A DNA stretch of 64,000 bases. It comes from Nitratidesulfovibrio termitidis HI1. Its GTDB lineage: Bacteria; Desulfobacterota; Desulfovibrionia; Desulfovibrionales; Desulfovibrionaceae. A program made the position numbers and the translations under genes. The notes below the pieces were generated by a model. It had not been told where the DNA came from, ran no database searches, and saw nothing but the letters and a program-made list of their open reading frames with translations. This document shows positions 6,632 through 48,735 of this stretch, in pieces. The stretch spans positions 4,019,639 through 4,083,638 of the forward strand of contig NZ_KI632512.1 of NCBI RefSeq assembly GCF_000504305.1, in the 5' to 3' direction. The first letter of the stretch is position 1. The number at the start of each line of letters is the position of its first letter.

Positions 6632-6747
6632 GGTGTCCTTGCCGGGGTTCCGCACGGAACCTCCGGCACCCCCGGCCCCCCGACGCAACCGCTTGCAACG
6701 ACGGACGCACCGGGGGGCATTGGCGCACACCGCAATGGAGTTTCTCA

Positions 6748-8640
6748 ATGCTTGAACTGATCCGTGCCCACGCGCAGTCGTGGGGCGTGAAGATCGCCTT
6801 CGGCGTGATCATCCTCGTATTCGTCTTCTGGGGCGTGGGCTCCATGAACAACAGTTCGTCAGGCGCCCTTGCCACGGTGAACAGGAAGTCCATCCTGCTC
6901 CAGGAGTTCGGGCGCGAATACGAGCGCCAGGTGGAGGCGCTGCGCAGCCGCTACCCCGGCATCACTGCCGAGGACATGAAGCAGATGGGCCTCAAGCGCC
7001 AGGTGTTGCAGTCCATGATCACCGAACGCCTGCTGACCGACGAGGCCGCGCGCGTCGGGCTTTCGGTGTCGCCGGTGGAACTGCGCCGCTCCATCGAGTC
7101 CATATCGGCCTTCCGCAACGGCGACGGCAAGTTCGACGCCGAGGTGTACCGTTCCGTGCTCAAGGGCCAGCAGACCACCCCCGGTCGCTTCGAGGACGGC
7201 ATCCGCCACGACATGCTGCTGCAGAAGCTGCGCGACCGGGTCACCTCGCCCGCTTCGGTCACCGATGAAGAAGCCCGCGCCCTGTTCGACTACGGTCGTG
7301 AGCGCCGGACCATCGAATACATGCTGTTTCCGCTGGAAGACTACGTGCTCAAGGTGACTCCCACCGACGAGCAGATCGCGGAACGCTACAACGAGAACAT
7401 GGATGCCTGGCGCAACCCCCAGCGCATCAGCCTGGACGCGGTCACCCTGACCCCGGCCAGCCTGGCCGCCAGCGTGGAGATTCCCGAATCGGCCATCGCC
7501 GCTTTCTACGCGGATAACGCCGAAACGTATTTCGTGGAGCCGGAGCGCGTGCGCGCCCGCCACATCCTGTTCATGGCCCAGGAAGGGGCGAGCAAGGAAG
7601 AGGATGCCGCGGCCCACGCCAAGGCCGAGGACGTCATTGCCCAGTTGAAGAAGGGCAAGGACTTTGCCACGCTGGCCACGAAATTGTCCGACGACAAGGG
7701 CAGCGGCGCGCAGGGCGGCGACCTTGGCTGGTTCACCAAGGGCCAGATGGTGCCCCCCTTCGAGGAAGCCGCGTTTGCCCTGAAGCCCGGCGAGGTCAGC
7801 GCGCCCGTGCGTACCGCCTTTGGCTGGCACGTCATCAAGCTGGAAGCGCACGAAGCCCAGCGCACCCGTGCCCTGGACGAAGTGCGCGGTGAGATCCGCC
7901 AGCGCCTGGGCGAGGAGAAGGCCTCCGAACGGATGCACGACGCCCTGGATACCGCGCTGGAAATGGCGGGCGCGGGCAAGTCCATCGACGACATCGCCAA
8001 GGCGCTGAAGCTGGAGCACAAGCCCACCGGCCTGTTCTCGCGGGCGGATGCGGGCGCCGCGGTCGGCCTGAAGGGTCAGTCCGTGGGCACCGCCTTCACC
8101 ACCCCGGCCGGCACGGTCATCGACACCCCCCTGGAAGTCGAGGGCGGGTACATGATCGCCGCCGTGCTGGAATCTCAGCCGGAAAGCGTGACCCCGCTGG
8201 AAAAGGTGAAGGAAGAAGTGGCCGCCCAGGTGCGCCGTATCGAAGGCGCCAAGCTGGCGGTGAAGGCCGCGCAGGAAGCCGGGGCCACGTTGGCCGATGG
8301 CGTGCCCGCCGAGCTTGCCGCCAGGGTGAAGGCCGCCGATCCCTTCGGTCGCAACGGCGTCATCGCCCCCTTCGGCCAGAGCCGTGCGCTGGTGGATGCC
8401 GCCTTTGCCGCCGCCCCCGGCGTCTGGCAGCCCGCCCCGGTGGATACCTCGTCCGGCGCCGTGCTGTTCCGGGTCAAGGACGTGCAGCGCCCCACCGACG
8501 CCGAATGGACCGCCGCCGCTGAAACGGTGCGCGCCACCGTGTTGTCCGCCAAGCGTGAGGAACTGTTCCGCGTGTTCGTGGGCGAGCTTTCCGCCGTCGC
8601 CAAGATCGAACTGCGCAACGCCAAGCTGCTCGACGACTGA
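6748..8640 (+). CDS. PpiD/SurA-type membrane-anchored peptidyl-prolyl isomerase
   Basis: Periplasmic folding factor of 630 residues. A single N-terminal membrane anchor (about residues 12-32, IAFGVIILVFVFWGVG) is followed by a SurA_N-like helical domain (40-210) that cradles unfolded outer-membrane or exported proteins, then a parvulin domain (about 268-365) with the hallmarks RARHILF, GGDLGWF and GWHVIKLE. A long C-terminal PpiD-like region follows. Compared with E. coli PpiD (623 aa) the length is typical. The ATG at 6748 is preceded by a GGAG-type ribosome site; the longer frame upstream overlaps the aconitase gene and is not coding. A strong terminator follows at 8667. Confidence 0.9.
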   Translation: MLELIRAHAQSWGVKIAFGVIILVFVFWGVGSMNNSSSGALATVNRKSILLQEFGREYERQVEALRSRYPGITAEDMKQMGLKRQVLQSMITERLLTDEAARVGLSVSPVELRRSIESISAFRNGDGKFDAEVYRSVLKGQQTTPGRFEDGIRHDMLLQKLRDRVTSPASVTDEEARALFDYGRERRTIEYMLFPLEDYVLKVTPTDEQIAERYNENMDAWRNPQRISLDAVTLTPASLAASVEIPESAIAAFYADNAETYFVEPERVRARHILFMAQEGASKEEDAAAHAKAEDVIAQLKKGKDFATLATKLSDDKGSGAQGGDLGWFTKGQMVPPFEEAAFALKPGEVSAPVRTAFGWHVIKLEAHEAQRTRALDEVRGEIRQRLGEEKASERMHDALDTALEMAGAGKSIDDIAKALKLEHKPTGLFSRADAGAAVGLKGQSVGTAFTTPAGTVIDTPLEVEGGYMIAAVLESQPESVTPLEKVKEEVAAQVRRIEGAKLAVKAAQEAGATLADGVPAELAARVKAADPFGRNGVIAPFGQSRALVDAAFAAAPGVWQPAPVDTSSGAVLFRVKDVQRPTDAEWTAAAETVRATVLSAKREELFRVFVGELSAVAKIELRNAKLLDD

Positions 8641-42615: not shown

Positions 42616-43872
42616 ATGGGCCGATTTACCGGCTTCGATGAAGTATATGCCGCGCTGTATGTGGATTTCGACAACATCTATTCGCGCCTGCGTGAACAGG
42701 ACGAAGACATCGCCCGCGCCTTTGCCACCAACCCCCAGCGCTGGGTGAAGTGGATAGAAGGGCATGCCCTGCGCATGTTGTACGGCGACGGGGTGCGCCG
42801 TCGCATCCTGAAGCGCATCTGTTACATGAACCCGCAGTGCTTCCACGAGTTCCGTCCGTTCTTCATCCGCGCCGCCTTCCAGGTGGTGGACTGCCCGCCG
42901 CTGACCAACCAGGGCAAGACCAGCGCCGACATCCATCTGGTCATGGACTGCATGGACGCGCTGAACCATTCCACCCGCTTCGACGAATTCATCATCCTTT
43001 CCGGCGACGCGGACTTCACGCCGTTGCTCATCCGCTTGCAGGAGCATGCCCGCCGCCCGCTGGTGCTTTCCGTGGGCTACACCTCGCCCGCGTACACCGC
43101 CGCCGCTTCGTGGCGCATCCGCGAAGACTGGTTCGTGCAGCAGGCCCTTGAAGACGAGCGCCCGGTGGAGCCCGCCCCCGCGCCCCCCCCGTATGCCCCG
43201 CGCGGTAACGGCGAACGGCTGGCCCGCGTGGCCGAGGTGGTGCGCCGCACCGTGGCCGATTCCCCCGCCCCGGTGGGCGTCGCCTCGCTGGCGCAGACCC
43301 TGCAACGCGAGGTGGACCCCGGCGCGGACTGGTTCGGCTATGGCCGCCTGCGCGACCTGCTGGACGTGCTGGACCTGAAGGGGCTGGAATTTTCGGCGGT
43401 GCCGCCCGGCTACCTGTACGACCCGGAACGCCATGAGCAGCCCGAGGAACGCGACGCCCACGACGACTTCCGTTCGCGCTACCCCGACCTGTACGATTTT
43501 GCCCTGAAGGTGCACCGCCTGACCGACATGCCCCTGCTGCGGCCCGACCACTTCCGGCAACTGCTGGGCATCATAGTGGAAGAGGTCAATGCCAACGGGT
43601 TCTTCATGACCACCACCTCGCGCAACGTGCGCGACCGGTGCGTGGAGGCGGGCCTGCCCATCGCGCGGGGCCACGTGAACTTCGTGCTGGTGGGCATAGC
43701 GCGCGGGGGCTACCCCCTCAACGAGCAGGACGGCGTGAACCTGCGCGAGGTGGGCAAGGCCTTTCTGCGCAACGCCTACGACCTGTGCCGCATGTCGCAG
43801 ATCGACCTGACCAAGGCGGAACAGCAGATGTTGATGGTGTGGATACTGCCCAAGGAGTCCATGGGCGATTAG
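42616..43872 (+). CDS. NYN-domain ribonuclease-like protein with LOTUS/OST-HTH domain
   Basis: A 418-aa protein. Residues about 8-180 form a NYN (PIN-like) nuclease domain: ALYVDFDNIYSRL at the N-terminus, SADIHLVMDCMDAL in the middle and ILSGDADFTPLLIRLQ, supplying the acidic metal-binding cluster. A Pro-rich linker leads to a LOTUS/OST-HTH module (about 195-265: VAEVVRRTVADSPAPVGVASLAQTL...GRLRDLLDVLDLKGLEF), a winged helix that binds RNA or partners. The last 140 residues may hold a second winged-helix unit. Such proteins are putative RNases (limkain-b1/LabA-like). ATG at 42616 follows AGGAG by 7 bp. Palindrome copy B follows the stop codon directly. Confidence 0.85.
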   Translation: MGRFTGFDEVYAALYVDFDNIYSRLREQDEDIARAFATNPQRWVKWIEGHALRMLYGDGVRRRILKRICYMNPQCFHEFRPFFIRAAFQVVDCPPLTNQGKTSADIHLVMDCMDALNHSTRFDEFIILSGDADFTPLLIRLQEHARRPLVLSVGYTSPAYTAAASWRIREDWFVQQALEDERPVEPAPAPPPYAPRGNGERLARVAEVVRRTVADSPAPVGVASLAQTLQREVDPGADWFGYGRLRDLLDVLDLKGLEFSAVPPGYLYDPERHEQPEERDAHDDFRSRYPDLYDFALKVHRLTDMPLLRPDHFRQLLGIIVEEVNANGFFMTTTSRNVRDRCVEAGLPIARGHVNFVLVGIARGGYPLNEQDGVNLREVGKAFLRNAYDLCRMSQIDLTKAEQQMLMVWILPKESMGD

Positions 43873-45865: not shown

Positions 45866-46020
45866 GACGGGGATGGAATGGCGCGGAAAGCATCATGCAC
45901 CCGACTGCTTACATAGTTATTGTCTATTGAATCGAGCAGAATTAATCAGCTATTTCGCTTTGTGGGCCTTCCGCGCGGCGTATAGTGTGGCGCCACTACT
46001 CATAACACGCGGAGGTGTTC

Positions 46021-46881
46021 ATGCGTCAGTTGCAGGACGAGGGGCGGCGCGGGTTTCTGCGCGCCTCGCTGACCGGGGTGGCGGGGCTGGCCGCTGCCTC
46101 TTTGCCGGGTGCCGCGCAGGCCGCGCCGTTCCCCGGCGGCAGGTTGCAGGTATGGTCGTGCGGGGGGCTGGCCGAGGCCATGCAGCCCGCCCATGCGGAC
46201 TACGAACGGCGCAGCGGCGCGGCGGTGGTGTACACCGGGGCGTTTGCGGCGGCGCTGGGCAAGTCGCTGCTGGGCAGCGGATCGACAGAGGTTTTCGCGG
46301 GGCGGGTGCTGGATCTTGCCAAAAAGCTGCGTGCGGAAGGGCGGATGATCTATTTCAAGCCGCTGTGCTTCACCAGCTACGTCATCGTCACGCCCACGGG
46401 CAATCCGGGCAACGTGCGCTCCGTGGACGACATGGCCCGCAAGGGCGTGCGGGTGGCCATGGCGCCGGAGGCGTCGCCCCCCGGCGGCGCGGCGGTCATG
46501 GGCCTGCTCAAGAAGGCTGGCTGCCAGGATGCGGTGATGGCCAACGTGGCCAACCCCGGCACCTGCGTGCAGCGTTCGGTGGAGGCGGTAACCACCGGCA
46601 AGGCCGACGCCATGATCGTGGAACTGCGGGTCACCCGCCTGCCCCAGTTCGCGGGCAAGCTGGACATCGTGGAGATTCCCGCCGGGCTGTTCCCCCCGCC
46701 GCCGCTTACCTTCACCGTGGGCGTCATGCAGGAAGCGCGCGACCGCGCCTTGGCCGATGACTACGTAACATGGGTGACGTCCCCCGAGGGACAGGCGCAC
46801 TTCGAGCGGGCCGGGTTCATCCCCGCCATTTCGCCGCGCGGGCAGGAACTGGTGGAAAAGCTGGGGGTGAAGGATGTCTGA
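46021..46881 (+). CDS. ModA-like periplasmic substrate-binding protein with Tat-type signal
   Basis: A 286-aa periplasmic binding protein of the molybdate/tungstate-like class. N-terminus has GRRGFLRASLTGVAGLAAASL, a twin-arginine-type signal with cleavage after AQA near residue 39. The mature sequence follows the ModA order: LQVWSCGGLAEAMQPAHADYERRSG, then TEVFAGRVLDLAKKL, SYVIVTPTGNPGNVRSVDD, VANPGTCVQRSVEAV and YVTWVTSPEGQAHFERAGFIP. Several Cys are present in the mature part. GGAGG lies before the ATG at 46021. No ABC permease or ATPase accompanies it; instead it overlaps a NapH-like gene, so it may act as a metal-oxyanion sensor or donor rather than an importer subunit. Ligand unproven. 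Confidence 0.78.
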   Translation: MRQLQDEGRRGFLRASLTGVAGLAAASLPGAAQAAPFPGGRLQVWSCGGLAEAMQPAHADYERRSGAAVVYTGAFAAALGKSLLGSGSTEVFAGRVLDLAKKLRAEGRMIYFKPLCFTSYVIVTPTGNPGNVRSVDDMARKGVRVAMAPEASPPGGAAVMGLLKKAGCQDAVMANVANPGTCVQRSVEAVTTGKADAMIVELRVTRLPQFAGKLDIVEIPAGLFPPPPLTFTVGVMQEARDRALADDYVTWVTSPEGQAHFERAGFIPAISPRGQELVEKLGVKDV

Positions 46882-47692
46882 TGCGGGTGCGAATGCCGTG
46901 CACGCCATGGGCGGCACGGCCAATCTGACGGAACTGAAGCCCCGCATGAGCGCGCGCGCCCGTACCGTGCGCCTGTGGAACCGGGCGATGCAGGTGGTCA
47001 TGCTGGCCGTCATTGGCCAGTGGTCGTTCTACGGCATCTTTCGTTGCCCCTTTGTGGTGCCGTACGTCAGCTGTCAGAACTGTCCGGTGGTGGCCTGCCA
47101 CGGGCGGCTGTTCACCATGTTCTGGGGCGTGTGGGCCGGGTGGCTGGCACTGGCGGCCCTGTTCGGACGCGCCTTCTGCGGGTGGGCCTGCCCCGGCGGC
47201 ACGGTGAACCGTCTGCTCGGGATCTTCGCCCCCCTGCGCCTGAAGCCCGGCAGCCTGGCCGCGCGCCTGCTGCCCCTCGGCAAGTACGGCGGGCTGGCGC
47301 TGGCCATGTGGGCCTACTTCGTGCTGGGGCAGCCGCGCGTCAACGTACCCATCCGCACCGGGGAATTCTTCGGCGCGGTGTCCCTTACCTTTGAACATGC
47401 CATGCCGCTGTGGCTGGTGCGCACCTGGACTGTGGTGGGCCTGCTGTCGCTGGGGGTGGCCATATCCGCCGCGTGGTGCCGTTTCGCCTGCCCGGCGGGC
47501 GGGGTGCTGGAAGTGGTGCGCCGGTTCGCCCCGTTCTCGGTGTACAAGACCGACGCCTGCAACGGCTGCGACAAGTGCCGCAAGGTCTGCTACATGGCCA
47601 CGCGCCCGGAAGAGACCAACTGTACCAACTGCGGGGACTGCCTTGGCTCGTGCCCGCAGGATTGCATCGGCATCGGGCGGAAGCCGCGATGA
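46874..47692 (+). CDS. NapH/NosR-like membrane 4Fe-4S protein
   Basis: A 272-aa membrane ferredoxin. About four membrane helices carry the family's CxxxCP motifs: CGWACPGG and CRFACPAGG, and an N-terminal SCQNCPVVACHG. The C-terminal domain has two cluster-binding sets, CNGCDKCRKVCY and CTNCGDCLGSCPQDC, on the cytoplasmic side. Relatives (NapH, NosR, RdxA/CcoG) pass electrons from the quinone pool or ferredoxin to redox enzymes. The ATG lies inside the end of the binding-protein gene (8-bp overlap), and its TGA overlaps the next ATG (ATGA), showing a tightly coupled operon. Confidence 0.87.
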   Translation: MSDAGANAVHAMGGTANLTELKPRMSARARTVRLWNRAMQVVMLAVIGQWSFYGIFRCPFVVPYVSCQNCPVVACHGRLFTMFWGVWAGWLALAALFGRAFCGWACPGGTVNRLLGIFAPLRLKPGSLAARLLPLGKYGGLALAMWAYFVLGQPRVNVPIRTGEFFGAVSLTFEHAMPLWLVRTWTVVGLLSLGVAISAAWCRFACPAGGVLEVVRRFAPFSVYKTDACNGCDKCRKVCYMATRPEETNCTNCGDCLGSCPQDCIGIGRKPR

Positions 47693-48639
47693 ACGCGGGC
47701 GATTCGCGCCATCCGTGCTTTACCGCCGGGGCGCACGCAACGCACGCGCGCATCCACCTGCCGGTGGCGGCGGCCTGCAATATCCGCTGCGGCTACTGCG
47801 ACCGGCGGCACGACTGCGTCAACGAGTCTCGCCCCGGCGTGACCAGCCGCGTGCTGCACCCGGCAGAGGCCGCGCAACTGGTGGACCGGGCCGTGGCGGC
47901 GCTGCCGCACCTTTCGGTTGTGGGCATCGCCGGTCCGGGCGACCCGCTGGCCAACCCCGGCCCCACGCTGGAAACCCTGGCCCTGGTGCGCCGCGCGCAT
48001 CCCGGACTGTTGCTGTGCCTGTCCACCAACGGGCTGGCCCTGCCGGAACATGTGAATGCGTTGGCCGAACTGGGTGTGGGGCACGTCACCGTGACCTTGA
48101 ACGCCGTGGACCCGGTGGTGGGTGCGCGTTTGTACCCCCATGTGACCGGTGATGATGGGCATGCGCTGCACGGCGCGGAAGGCGCAGCGTACCTGCTGTC
48201 CCGGCAGGAGGAAGCCCTGACGCGCCTTGCGCGGGCGGGCATTGCGGTAAAGGTGAATACCGTGGTGGTGCCCGGCGTCAATGACGCCCATGTGGAGGCG
48301 GTGGCCCTGCGCGCCGCCGCGCTGGGGGCATCGCTGATGAACTGCATCGGACTGATTCCGGTTGCGGGCACGCCGCTGGGCGGCTTGGCCGCACCGGGAC
48401 CGCAGCTGATGGACGCGGTGCGTGCGGCTGCGGGGCGACATCTGCCCCAGATGCGCCACTGCGCGCGCTGCCGGGCCGACGCCGCCGGATTGCTGGGCGA
48501 CGGCGGCACGCTGGGCGGGCTGGGCCTGCTGCCCATGCAGCCGGACCATCCGCGCCGGGGGCATGGCCCGTCGGGACTGCCGAATGTGGCAGGCCAGTCA
48601 GGCATGTCGGGGTGTACGGGGCGGCGGCGCTGCGACTGA
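47689..48639 (+). CDS. nifB: NifB-type radical SAM protein (without NifX domain)
   Basis: A 316-aa radical SAM enzyme with the NifB hallmark motifs. N-terminal HPCF (His8, Cys10), ARIHLPVAAACNIRCGYC with cluster ligands Cys30, Cys34, Cys37 and a further Cys43 in HDCVNESRPGV, then GIAGPGDPLANP, LCLSTNGLALP, VTVTLNAVDP and, near the end, QMRHCARCRADAAGLLGD, the CxxC pair that binds an extra cluster in NifB. NifB builds the NifB-co precursor of FeMo-co. No NifX/NafY domain follows; the last 40 residues are Gly/Arg-rich. Coupled by an ATGA overlap to the NapH-like gene. No other nif gene is in the window, so its role in nitrogen fixation is uncertain. Confidence 0.85.
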   Translation: MNAGDSRHPCFTAGAHATHARIHLPVAAACNIRCGYCDRRHDCVNESRPGVTSRVLHPAEAAQLVDRAVAALPHLSVVGIAGPGDPLANPGPTLETLALVRRAHPGLLLCLSTNGLALPEHVNALAELGVGHVTVTLNAVDPVVGARLYPHVTGDDGHALHGAEGAAYLLSRQEEALTRLARAGIAVKVNTVVVPGVNDAHVEAVALRAAALGASLMNCIGLIPVAGTPLGGLAAPGPQLMDAVRAAAGRHLPQMRHCARCRADAAGLLGDGGTLGGLGLLPMQPDHPRRGHGPSGLPNVAGQSGMSGCTGRRRCD

Positions 48640-48698: not shown

Positions 48699-48735
48699 AA
48701 GGACGCCGTCCCGTCATGGGCGGCGTCCTTTCCTG
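48699..48735 (+). terminator. Terminator of the ModA-NapH-NifB operon (bidirectional)
   Basis: AAGGACGCCG / CGGCGTCCTT 10-bp stem with a CCC/GGG inner pairing; followed by TCCTGTTT on plus and TTGTCTTTT on minus, serving also the convergent msrA gene. Confidence 0.85.

Follow-up and report, generated by a model that had tools for sequence, protein, structure and literature searches.

A conserved operon that couples an exported ModA-like protein and a membrane ferredoxin to NifB, probably apart from nitrogenase

Why would a bacterium whose two nitrogenase clusters each have a nifB gene keep another one elsewhere, coupled to genes for an exported binding protein and a membrane ferredoxin? The question is raised by an operon of Nitratidesulfovibrio termitidis HI1 (Desulfobacterota) within a window of 64,000 nucleotides (contig NZ_KI632512.1, positions 4,019,639 to 4,083,638; coordinates without a locus label are those of the window). 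Three forward-strand genes, spanning 46021–48639, encode a ModA-like protein of 286 amino acids (P0001, 46021–46881), a NapH-like membrane ferredoxin of 272 (P0002, 46874–47692) and a single-domain NifB of 316 (P0003, 47689–48639). The genes overlap by 8 and 4 bp, which confirms the coupling reported in a preliminary description of the sequence. That description had offered two readings, a route from periplasmic metal-oxyanion capture to NifB cofactor synthesis and, alternatively, a use of NifB chemistry outside nitrogenase; our comparisons speak for the latter.

The host genome, a single contig of 4.26 Mb, contains a Mo-type nitrogenase cluster with nifH, nifD (over its cut-off), nifK, nifE, nifN and a nifB encoding 427 amino acids, and an Fe-only cluster with anfD, anfG and anfK (all over their cut-offs) and a nifB encoding 480 amino acids. 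Both cluster NifBs pass the NCBIfam cut-off; over the matched part they share 56% and 55% identity with the NifB of the window, which is encoded far from both clusters. Because each cluster has its own nifB, the gene in the window is a third one; the worry that it might simply be the nifB of a normal nif cluster was justified as to the presence of nitrogenase and mistaken as to which genes the clusters use.

A search of 395 Desulfobacterota genomes with the NapH-like protein (E ≤ 1 × 10−20) gave 16 matches in 14 genera, and in all 16 a relative of the ModA-like protein was encoded next to the NapH-like gene, with an 8-bp overlap within the pair in 13 of 18 loci by our own start calls. NifB (E ≤ 1 × 10−40) was present in every one of the 16 pair genomes, which is far from chance given that merely 110 of the 395 genomes have it (P = 5.7 × 10−10), and the association held by genus (14 of 14 pair genera versus 77 of 246, P = 3.6 × 10−8), both P values ignoring deeper kinship. 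The NifB gene adjoins the pair in 11 of the 16 genomes (the host, G172, G296, G208, G390, G214, G210, G255, G201, G294 and G133), in the order NifB-ModA-NapH in G294 and G133, so that the search for the three-gene order found the trio other than scattered. In the remaining five (G109, G335, G249, G330 and G384) the only NifB lies beside genes of the nitrogenase family PF00148; its presence wherever the trio NifB is missing (5/5) suggests that the ordinary NifB product serves there. The simplest reading is that the pair needs the NifB product, drawn either from its own NifB or from that of a nif cluster, and genome comparison supports both the pairing and its link to NifB well.

Constant co-occurrence with nitrogenase held only in part. 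PF00148 genes over the cut-off were found in 12 of the 16 pair genomes, whereas G208 and G210 had none and G201 and G255 one sub-threshold scrap each. A second sample, the class of G255, comprised 55 genomes, eight with a ModA-like protein and five of those new; all 52 genomes unexamined for the pair's partners were tested, some of them already in the first sample. Two of its pair genomes, G492 and G494, had NifB beside the pair and no PF00148 match at E 1 × 10−10. Among NifB genomes without the pair, of which the first sample had 94, PF00148 was found in all 80 tested (14 were left out) and, in the second sample, in 18 of 18, five of which had been tested earlier. Pooled, PF00148 over threshold was absent from 6 of 20 pair genomes with NifB versus 0 of 93 NifB genomes without the pair (P = 1.5 × 10−5). 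G501 has one NifB beside the pair and a second with its nitrogenase, and G490 has a nitrogenase with NifB and a pair contig that ends inside the start of another NifB. Since the pair is carried by genomes in which nitrogenase was not found, an occurrence well supported by these comparisons, the operon seems to use NifB for a different job, and we consider a NifB-linked function apart from nitrogenase very probable.

The exported protein matches the fold family of ModA (SBP_bac_11, 156 bits) and does not reach the cut-off of the ModA model TIGR01256 (48.5 versus 62.5 bits). Its twin-arginine translocation (Tat)-type motif, RRGFLR, recurs as RRxF[LI] in 19 of 19 aligned relatives, and C47 (codon 46159–46161, in VWSCGGL), C116 (46366–46368, in PLC[FY]T) and C182 (46564–46566, in xCVx) are invariant in the same 19, as are Y71, R95, E201 and R203. 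The three Cys motifs are also kept in another five ModA-like loci, one of which, L139 (G494), has the same sequence as L052, which was already counted. When aligned to 4kd5, the Ser, Ser and Tyr that we take to be the molybdate ligands of ModA (S12, S39 and Y170) correspond to G49, A76 and E201, while C47 falls two residues before the first ligand position and C182 next to the V152 position. With the ligand residues lost and invariant Cys flanking the pocket, the protein is predicted not to be a molybdate binder. Its assignment to the molybdate class is therefore given up; the Tat-type export and the lack of a neighboring transporter, also part of that assignment, stand, as no ABC (ATP-binding cassette) permease or ATPase gene occurs among the flanking genes beside the window's operon.

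The NapH-like protein bears out the description of a polytopic protein with two CxxxCP motifs (47177–47191 and 47477–47491, the Cys of the second invariant) and two 4Fe-4S Cys sets (47558–47653). It is far below the cut-off of the NapH model TIGR02163 (37.2 versus 213 bits). In an alignment of 18 such proteins, L098 excluded, 16 Cys are invariant: 12 belong to the NapH pattern, and a further four (Cys 58, 67, 70 and 75; 47045–47098) lie in RCPFxVPxxxCxxCPxxxCxG after the first helix. By hydropathy the window's protein has three helices, and 6 of the 18 relatives show an additional one in between; given this helix count, we infer a periplasmic site for the four extra Cys from the charge of the basic N-terminus and the NapH plan.

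The window's NifB has the motifs HPC (47710–47718), CNIRCGYC (the radical-SAM, or radical S-adenosylmethionine, motif; 47776–47799), NESRPGV and CxxCRADA (within HCARCRADA, 48457–48483). It scores 327.7 bits against the 343.65-bit cut-off of the NCBIfam nifB equivalog TIGR01290 and matches profile positions 10–278 of 441, which means that the radical-SAM domain is complete while the NifX-like C-terminus is missing; calling it a full NifB was thus correct for the catalytic domain and too generous for the remainder. By these motifs it is a NifB-type protein below the equivalog cut-off, with a predicted activity, and its best matches among solved structures are 6y1x, a radical-SAM protein (240.7 bits), and those of NifB. 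All 14 trio NifBs have HPC, CxxxCxxC and CxxCR[AS]DA (the radical-SAM motif of L019 was read separately), while the RPGV pattern as written fails in three of them (L097, L102 and L103) and the Cys-(S/T)NG pattern in three (L089, L102 and L103) as well as in many nif-cluster NifBs. In a 70-row NifB tree, in which long branches, and odd composition in three rows including the window's, were flagged, a 43-row clade consists mostly of nif-cluster NifBs; 12 trio NifBs join immediately outside it, and the two from G294 and G133 stand apart from the 12, also outside that clade. The 14 trio NifBs need three label changes on the tree (shuffled mean 13.0, none of 500 shuffles as low). Neither a constraint uniting 12 of them nor one uniting all 14 was rejected (p = 0.329 and 0.101, respectively), and the trio NifBs may have a single origin.

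We propose that the operon is a nitrogenase-independent user of NifB. NifB would build an [8Fe-9S-C]-type cluster in the cytoplasm, the ModA-like protein would bind it by the three invariant Cys beside its cleft, and the folded, loaded protein would leave through the Tat system; Tat export suits a protein that acquires its cofactor before export. The NapH-like protein would then relay electrons, taken from quinol or from the cytoplasmic ferredoxin side, by way of its four additional Cys to the exported protein, which might reduce a small molecule in the periplasm. In this scheme the identity of the cluster, its transfer to the exported protein, the electron route and the reaction are all inferred. 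The invariant Cys, whose conservation is well supported by the alignments, make the exported protein the likeliest acceptor, and we regard its carrying a NifB-made cluster as the best explanation, held tentatively and at nearly balanced confidence. The wider claim, that the operon represents a new class of periplasmic metalloprotein in which a Tat-exported binding-protein fold with a NifB-made Fe-S-carbide cluster is served by a dedicated membrane ferredoxin and carries out a periplasmic reaction in anaerobes without a nitrogenase-family protein, is conceivable but doubtful.

Several observations weigh against this proposal, beyond the kinship that the P values ignore. The cluster is placed on the exported protein by sequence comparison and not by biochemistry. 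A large cluster in a ModA-type cleft also lacks a model, as AlphaFold2 run with four sequences gave a predicted local distance difference test score (pLDDT) of 57.9 and a predicted template modeling score (pTM) of 0.56 and was not used. All six nitrogenase-less genomes are draft assemblies with a completeness from 88 to 99% (G208 98%, G210 99%, G201 93%, G255 93%, G492 88% and G494 93%), and with three of them from one family (f91) they are not six independent cases. That drafts can leave real gaps in presence/absence counts is seen in G488, which has four nitrogenase-family matches and no NifB found. G484 (88% complete, its ModA-like gene cut by a contig end) has a pair gene, and neither NifB nor PF00148 was found in it, so that by our count it is an exception to the link with NifB. 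Each of G133 and G294 has a single NifB, which may serve the two divergent PF00148 genes of that genome.

Among other explanations, NifB might supply a different cytoplasmic acceptor, such as a double-cubane cluster protein or an unrecognized enzyme, and the role of the pair would be to provide metal, sulfur or electrons. In 4 of 16 genomes, three of them nitrogenase-less, the pair has a PF06050 gene nearby (on both sides in G210, and in G255, G201 and G133), where 0.22 loci would be expected under uniform placement (P = 8.7 × 10−5); in all, PF06050 genes of the double-cubane type were noted beside the pair at L094:2998–4278 and 6747–7976, L095:4423–5697, L097:4418–5698, L103:3522–4673 and L141:102–1376. 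The L094 gene matches PDB 6eno/7yyl (E 1 × 10−133), the former of which we take to be the double-cubane protein structure, and a similar gene, judged by its start only, lies upstream of the pair gene in G484. We nevertheless think such an acceptor unlikely, given that PF06050 is not near the pair in 12 of 16, with none in G294 and a weak one in G214, and that it would leave the invariant Cys and the Tat signal unexplained. Somewhat less likely again is a trio NifB with a changed function or product, next to an exported protein, engaged in periplasmic redox or sensing, whose ligand is a simple metal, a thiol-reactive compound or a small Fe-S cluster. Three Cys could hold many metals, the NifX-like domain is absent (as read for the window's NifB) and all 14 trio NifBs lie outside the 43-row nif clade; conversely, all 14 retain the cluster motifs, and a nif-linked NifB is present in each of the five genomes that lack a trio NifB.

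The host's possession of both nitrogenases, the diazotroph-like character of several pair genomes and a related single-domain NifB after the Fe-only nitrogenase cluster of L057 would agree with a nifB kept in reserve, or under special regulation, for the Mo- and Fe-only enzymes, with the neighbors sensing metals. We judge this improbable, because each host cluster already has a NifB that passes the cut-off and because, in six pair genomes with NifB, no nitrogenase passes threshold. As for the capture of molybdate or another oxyanion coupled to NifB cofactor synthesis, the fold, the distant similarity to ModA and the molybdopterin-enzyme genes near some pairs (L098) are in keeping with it. The ModA ligand residues are gone, with Cys and Glu instead and three invariant Cys flanking the pocket, and the window's operon has no transporter genes beside it; we know of no handling of Mo or V by NifB. 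This reading has very little left to recommend it.

The proposed user of NifB resembles several known systems in part. With the nitrogenase route from NifB through NifEN to NifDK it shares the NifB radical-SAM domain and its motifs, but the operon has neither a NifEN/NifDK partner nor, in its NifB, the NifX-like domain. The exported protein has the fold family of ModA, yet differs in its Tat motif, three invariant Cys, missing Ser/Tyr ligands and lack of adjacent ABC transporter genes. NapH/NosR-type membrane ferredoxins likewise have two CxxxCP motifs and two 4Fe-4S sets, whereas the operon's protein adds four invariant Cys after the first helix and is partnered with a Cys-containing binding protein. 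Because these tested features fail, we do not class the unit as a ModA, NapH or nitrogenase system.

A closer precedent may be the methyl-coenzyme M reductase (MCR) activation complex, McrC/Mmp7, in which [8Fe-9S-C]-like clusters occur outside the nitrogenase family, some of them with Cys ligands (in one case two Cys and possibly one more); NifB is reported to be essential in methanogens, including those that lack nitrogenase genes (PMC12176620). That complex is archaeal, cytoplasmic, ATP-driven and made of other protein families, whereas the operon combines a membrane ferredoxin with a Tat-exported protein of binding-protein fold; no McrC/Mmp7 model matched the three operon proteins in general profile scans, no dedicated search having been run. 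In methylthio-alkane reductase MarBHDK a NifB-like maturase, MarB, is reported to serve a non-nitrogenase enzyme; its acceptor is nitrogenase-like, unlike the situation in the six genomes without PF00148 over threshold (PMC12552129). As far as we found, the archaeal MCR-activation complex is the only precedent for [8Fe-9S-C] outside the nitrogenase family, dating from 2025, and we recognized no paper describing the three-gene unit in a literature coverage that leaves out preprints and most subscription journals. If the proposal is right, a bacterial, exported and nitrogenase-free user would widen NifB chemistry and the story of its origin, would provide a small new scaffold for a carbide-centered Fe-S cluster, and would warn that nifB alone is no marker of nitrogen fixation. 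The novelty would lie in the gene system as a whole, each protein belonging to a known superfamily and the function being proposed from sequence.

Genes near the pair in other genomes vary. In L098, L100, L102 and L103 the gene immediately upstream, within the operon, is porin-like (Alginate_exp in the one member scanned), and HdrA/FlpD-type, molybdopterin and YedE-like genes recur. None of these, nor PF06050, is universal, and none lies beside the window's operon. The porins hint at a periplasmic substrate that enters through the outer membrane, and the other neighbors at difficult reductions. A BadF-type ATPase gene accompanies the PF06050 gene in some pair loci. In the class of G208 the pair occurs in 1 of 85 genomes, G208 itself.

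In the window, the first gene is preceded by a GGAGG ribosome-binding site (46011–46015, forward strand), and the operon is flanked by an aldehyde dehydrogenase gene and the convergent msrA. A terminator-type hairpin at about 48701–48733, not assigned to a strand, folds together with its tail at −31.3 kcal/mol (z = −3.05; none of 200 shuffles equally stable) and, from its position between operon and msrA, may terminate both. The terminator noted earlier is thus present as a hairpin 3' of the operon, although a simple terminator scan found two against a shuffle mean of 2.1, no excess, and did not list this hairpin on the forward strand. Ratios of nonsynonymous to synonymous substitution (dN/dS) between this genome and two close relatives were 0.08 for the ModA-like gene, 0.11–0.15 for the NapH-like gene and 0.14–0.34 for nifB (controls, 0.02–0.13), all well below 1 and highest for nifB, whose C-terminal tail is variable. 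Two other accounts of the locus were rejected: chance neighborhood, by the adjacency of the pair in 16/16 and of NifB in 11/16, and recent mobile insertion, the same flanking genes being found in L018 and L019 and a plasmid search giving merely two modA genes (27.1% and 25.0% identity).

Some further loci were noted in passing. The host's Fe-only cluster (L017, C1:74000–93900) reads anfH-nifI1-nifI2-anfD-anfG-anfK and also contains a sigma-54-type regulator, besides a nifB of its own. Between nifK and nifE of the host (L015:15367–16617) is a NifB-like paralogue of 416 amino acids (TIGR01290, 154.5 bits) with relatives in L021, L039 and L044 at 35–36% identity; as it has none of HPC, CxxxCxxC and CxxCRADA, it is probably not a radical-SAM enzyme. 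In L057 (371–8906) a regulator and a single-domain NifB come after an Fe-only nitrogenase cluster; this NifB shares 54% identity with that of the window, and the fetched stretch has no pair. In Flavonifractor and related gut bacteria (L060:4482–8777, L061 and L068), NifB has as neighbors a NifH-like gene and two genes distantly similar to NifD/NifE, so that the whole forms a nitrogenase-like unit. Upstream of the operon, an open reading frame at 42616–43872 encodes a protein of 418 amino acids that has no NCBIfam match at E 1 × 10−10 and is kept at the same place in L018.

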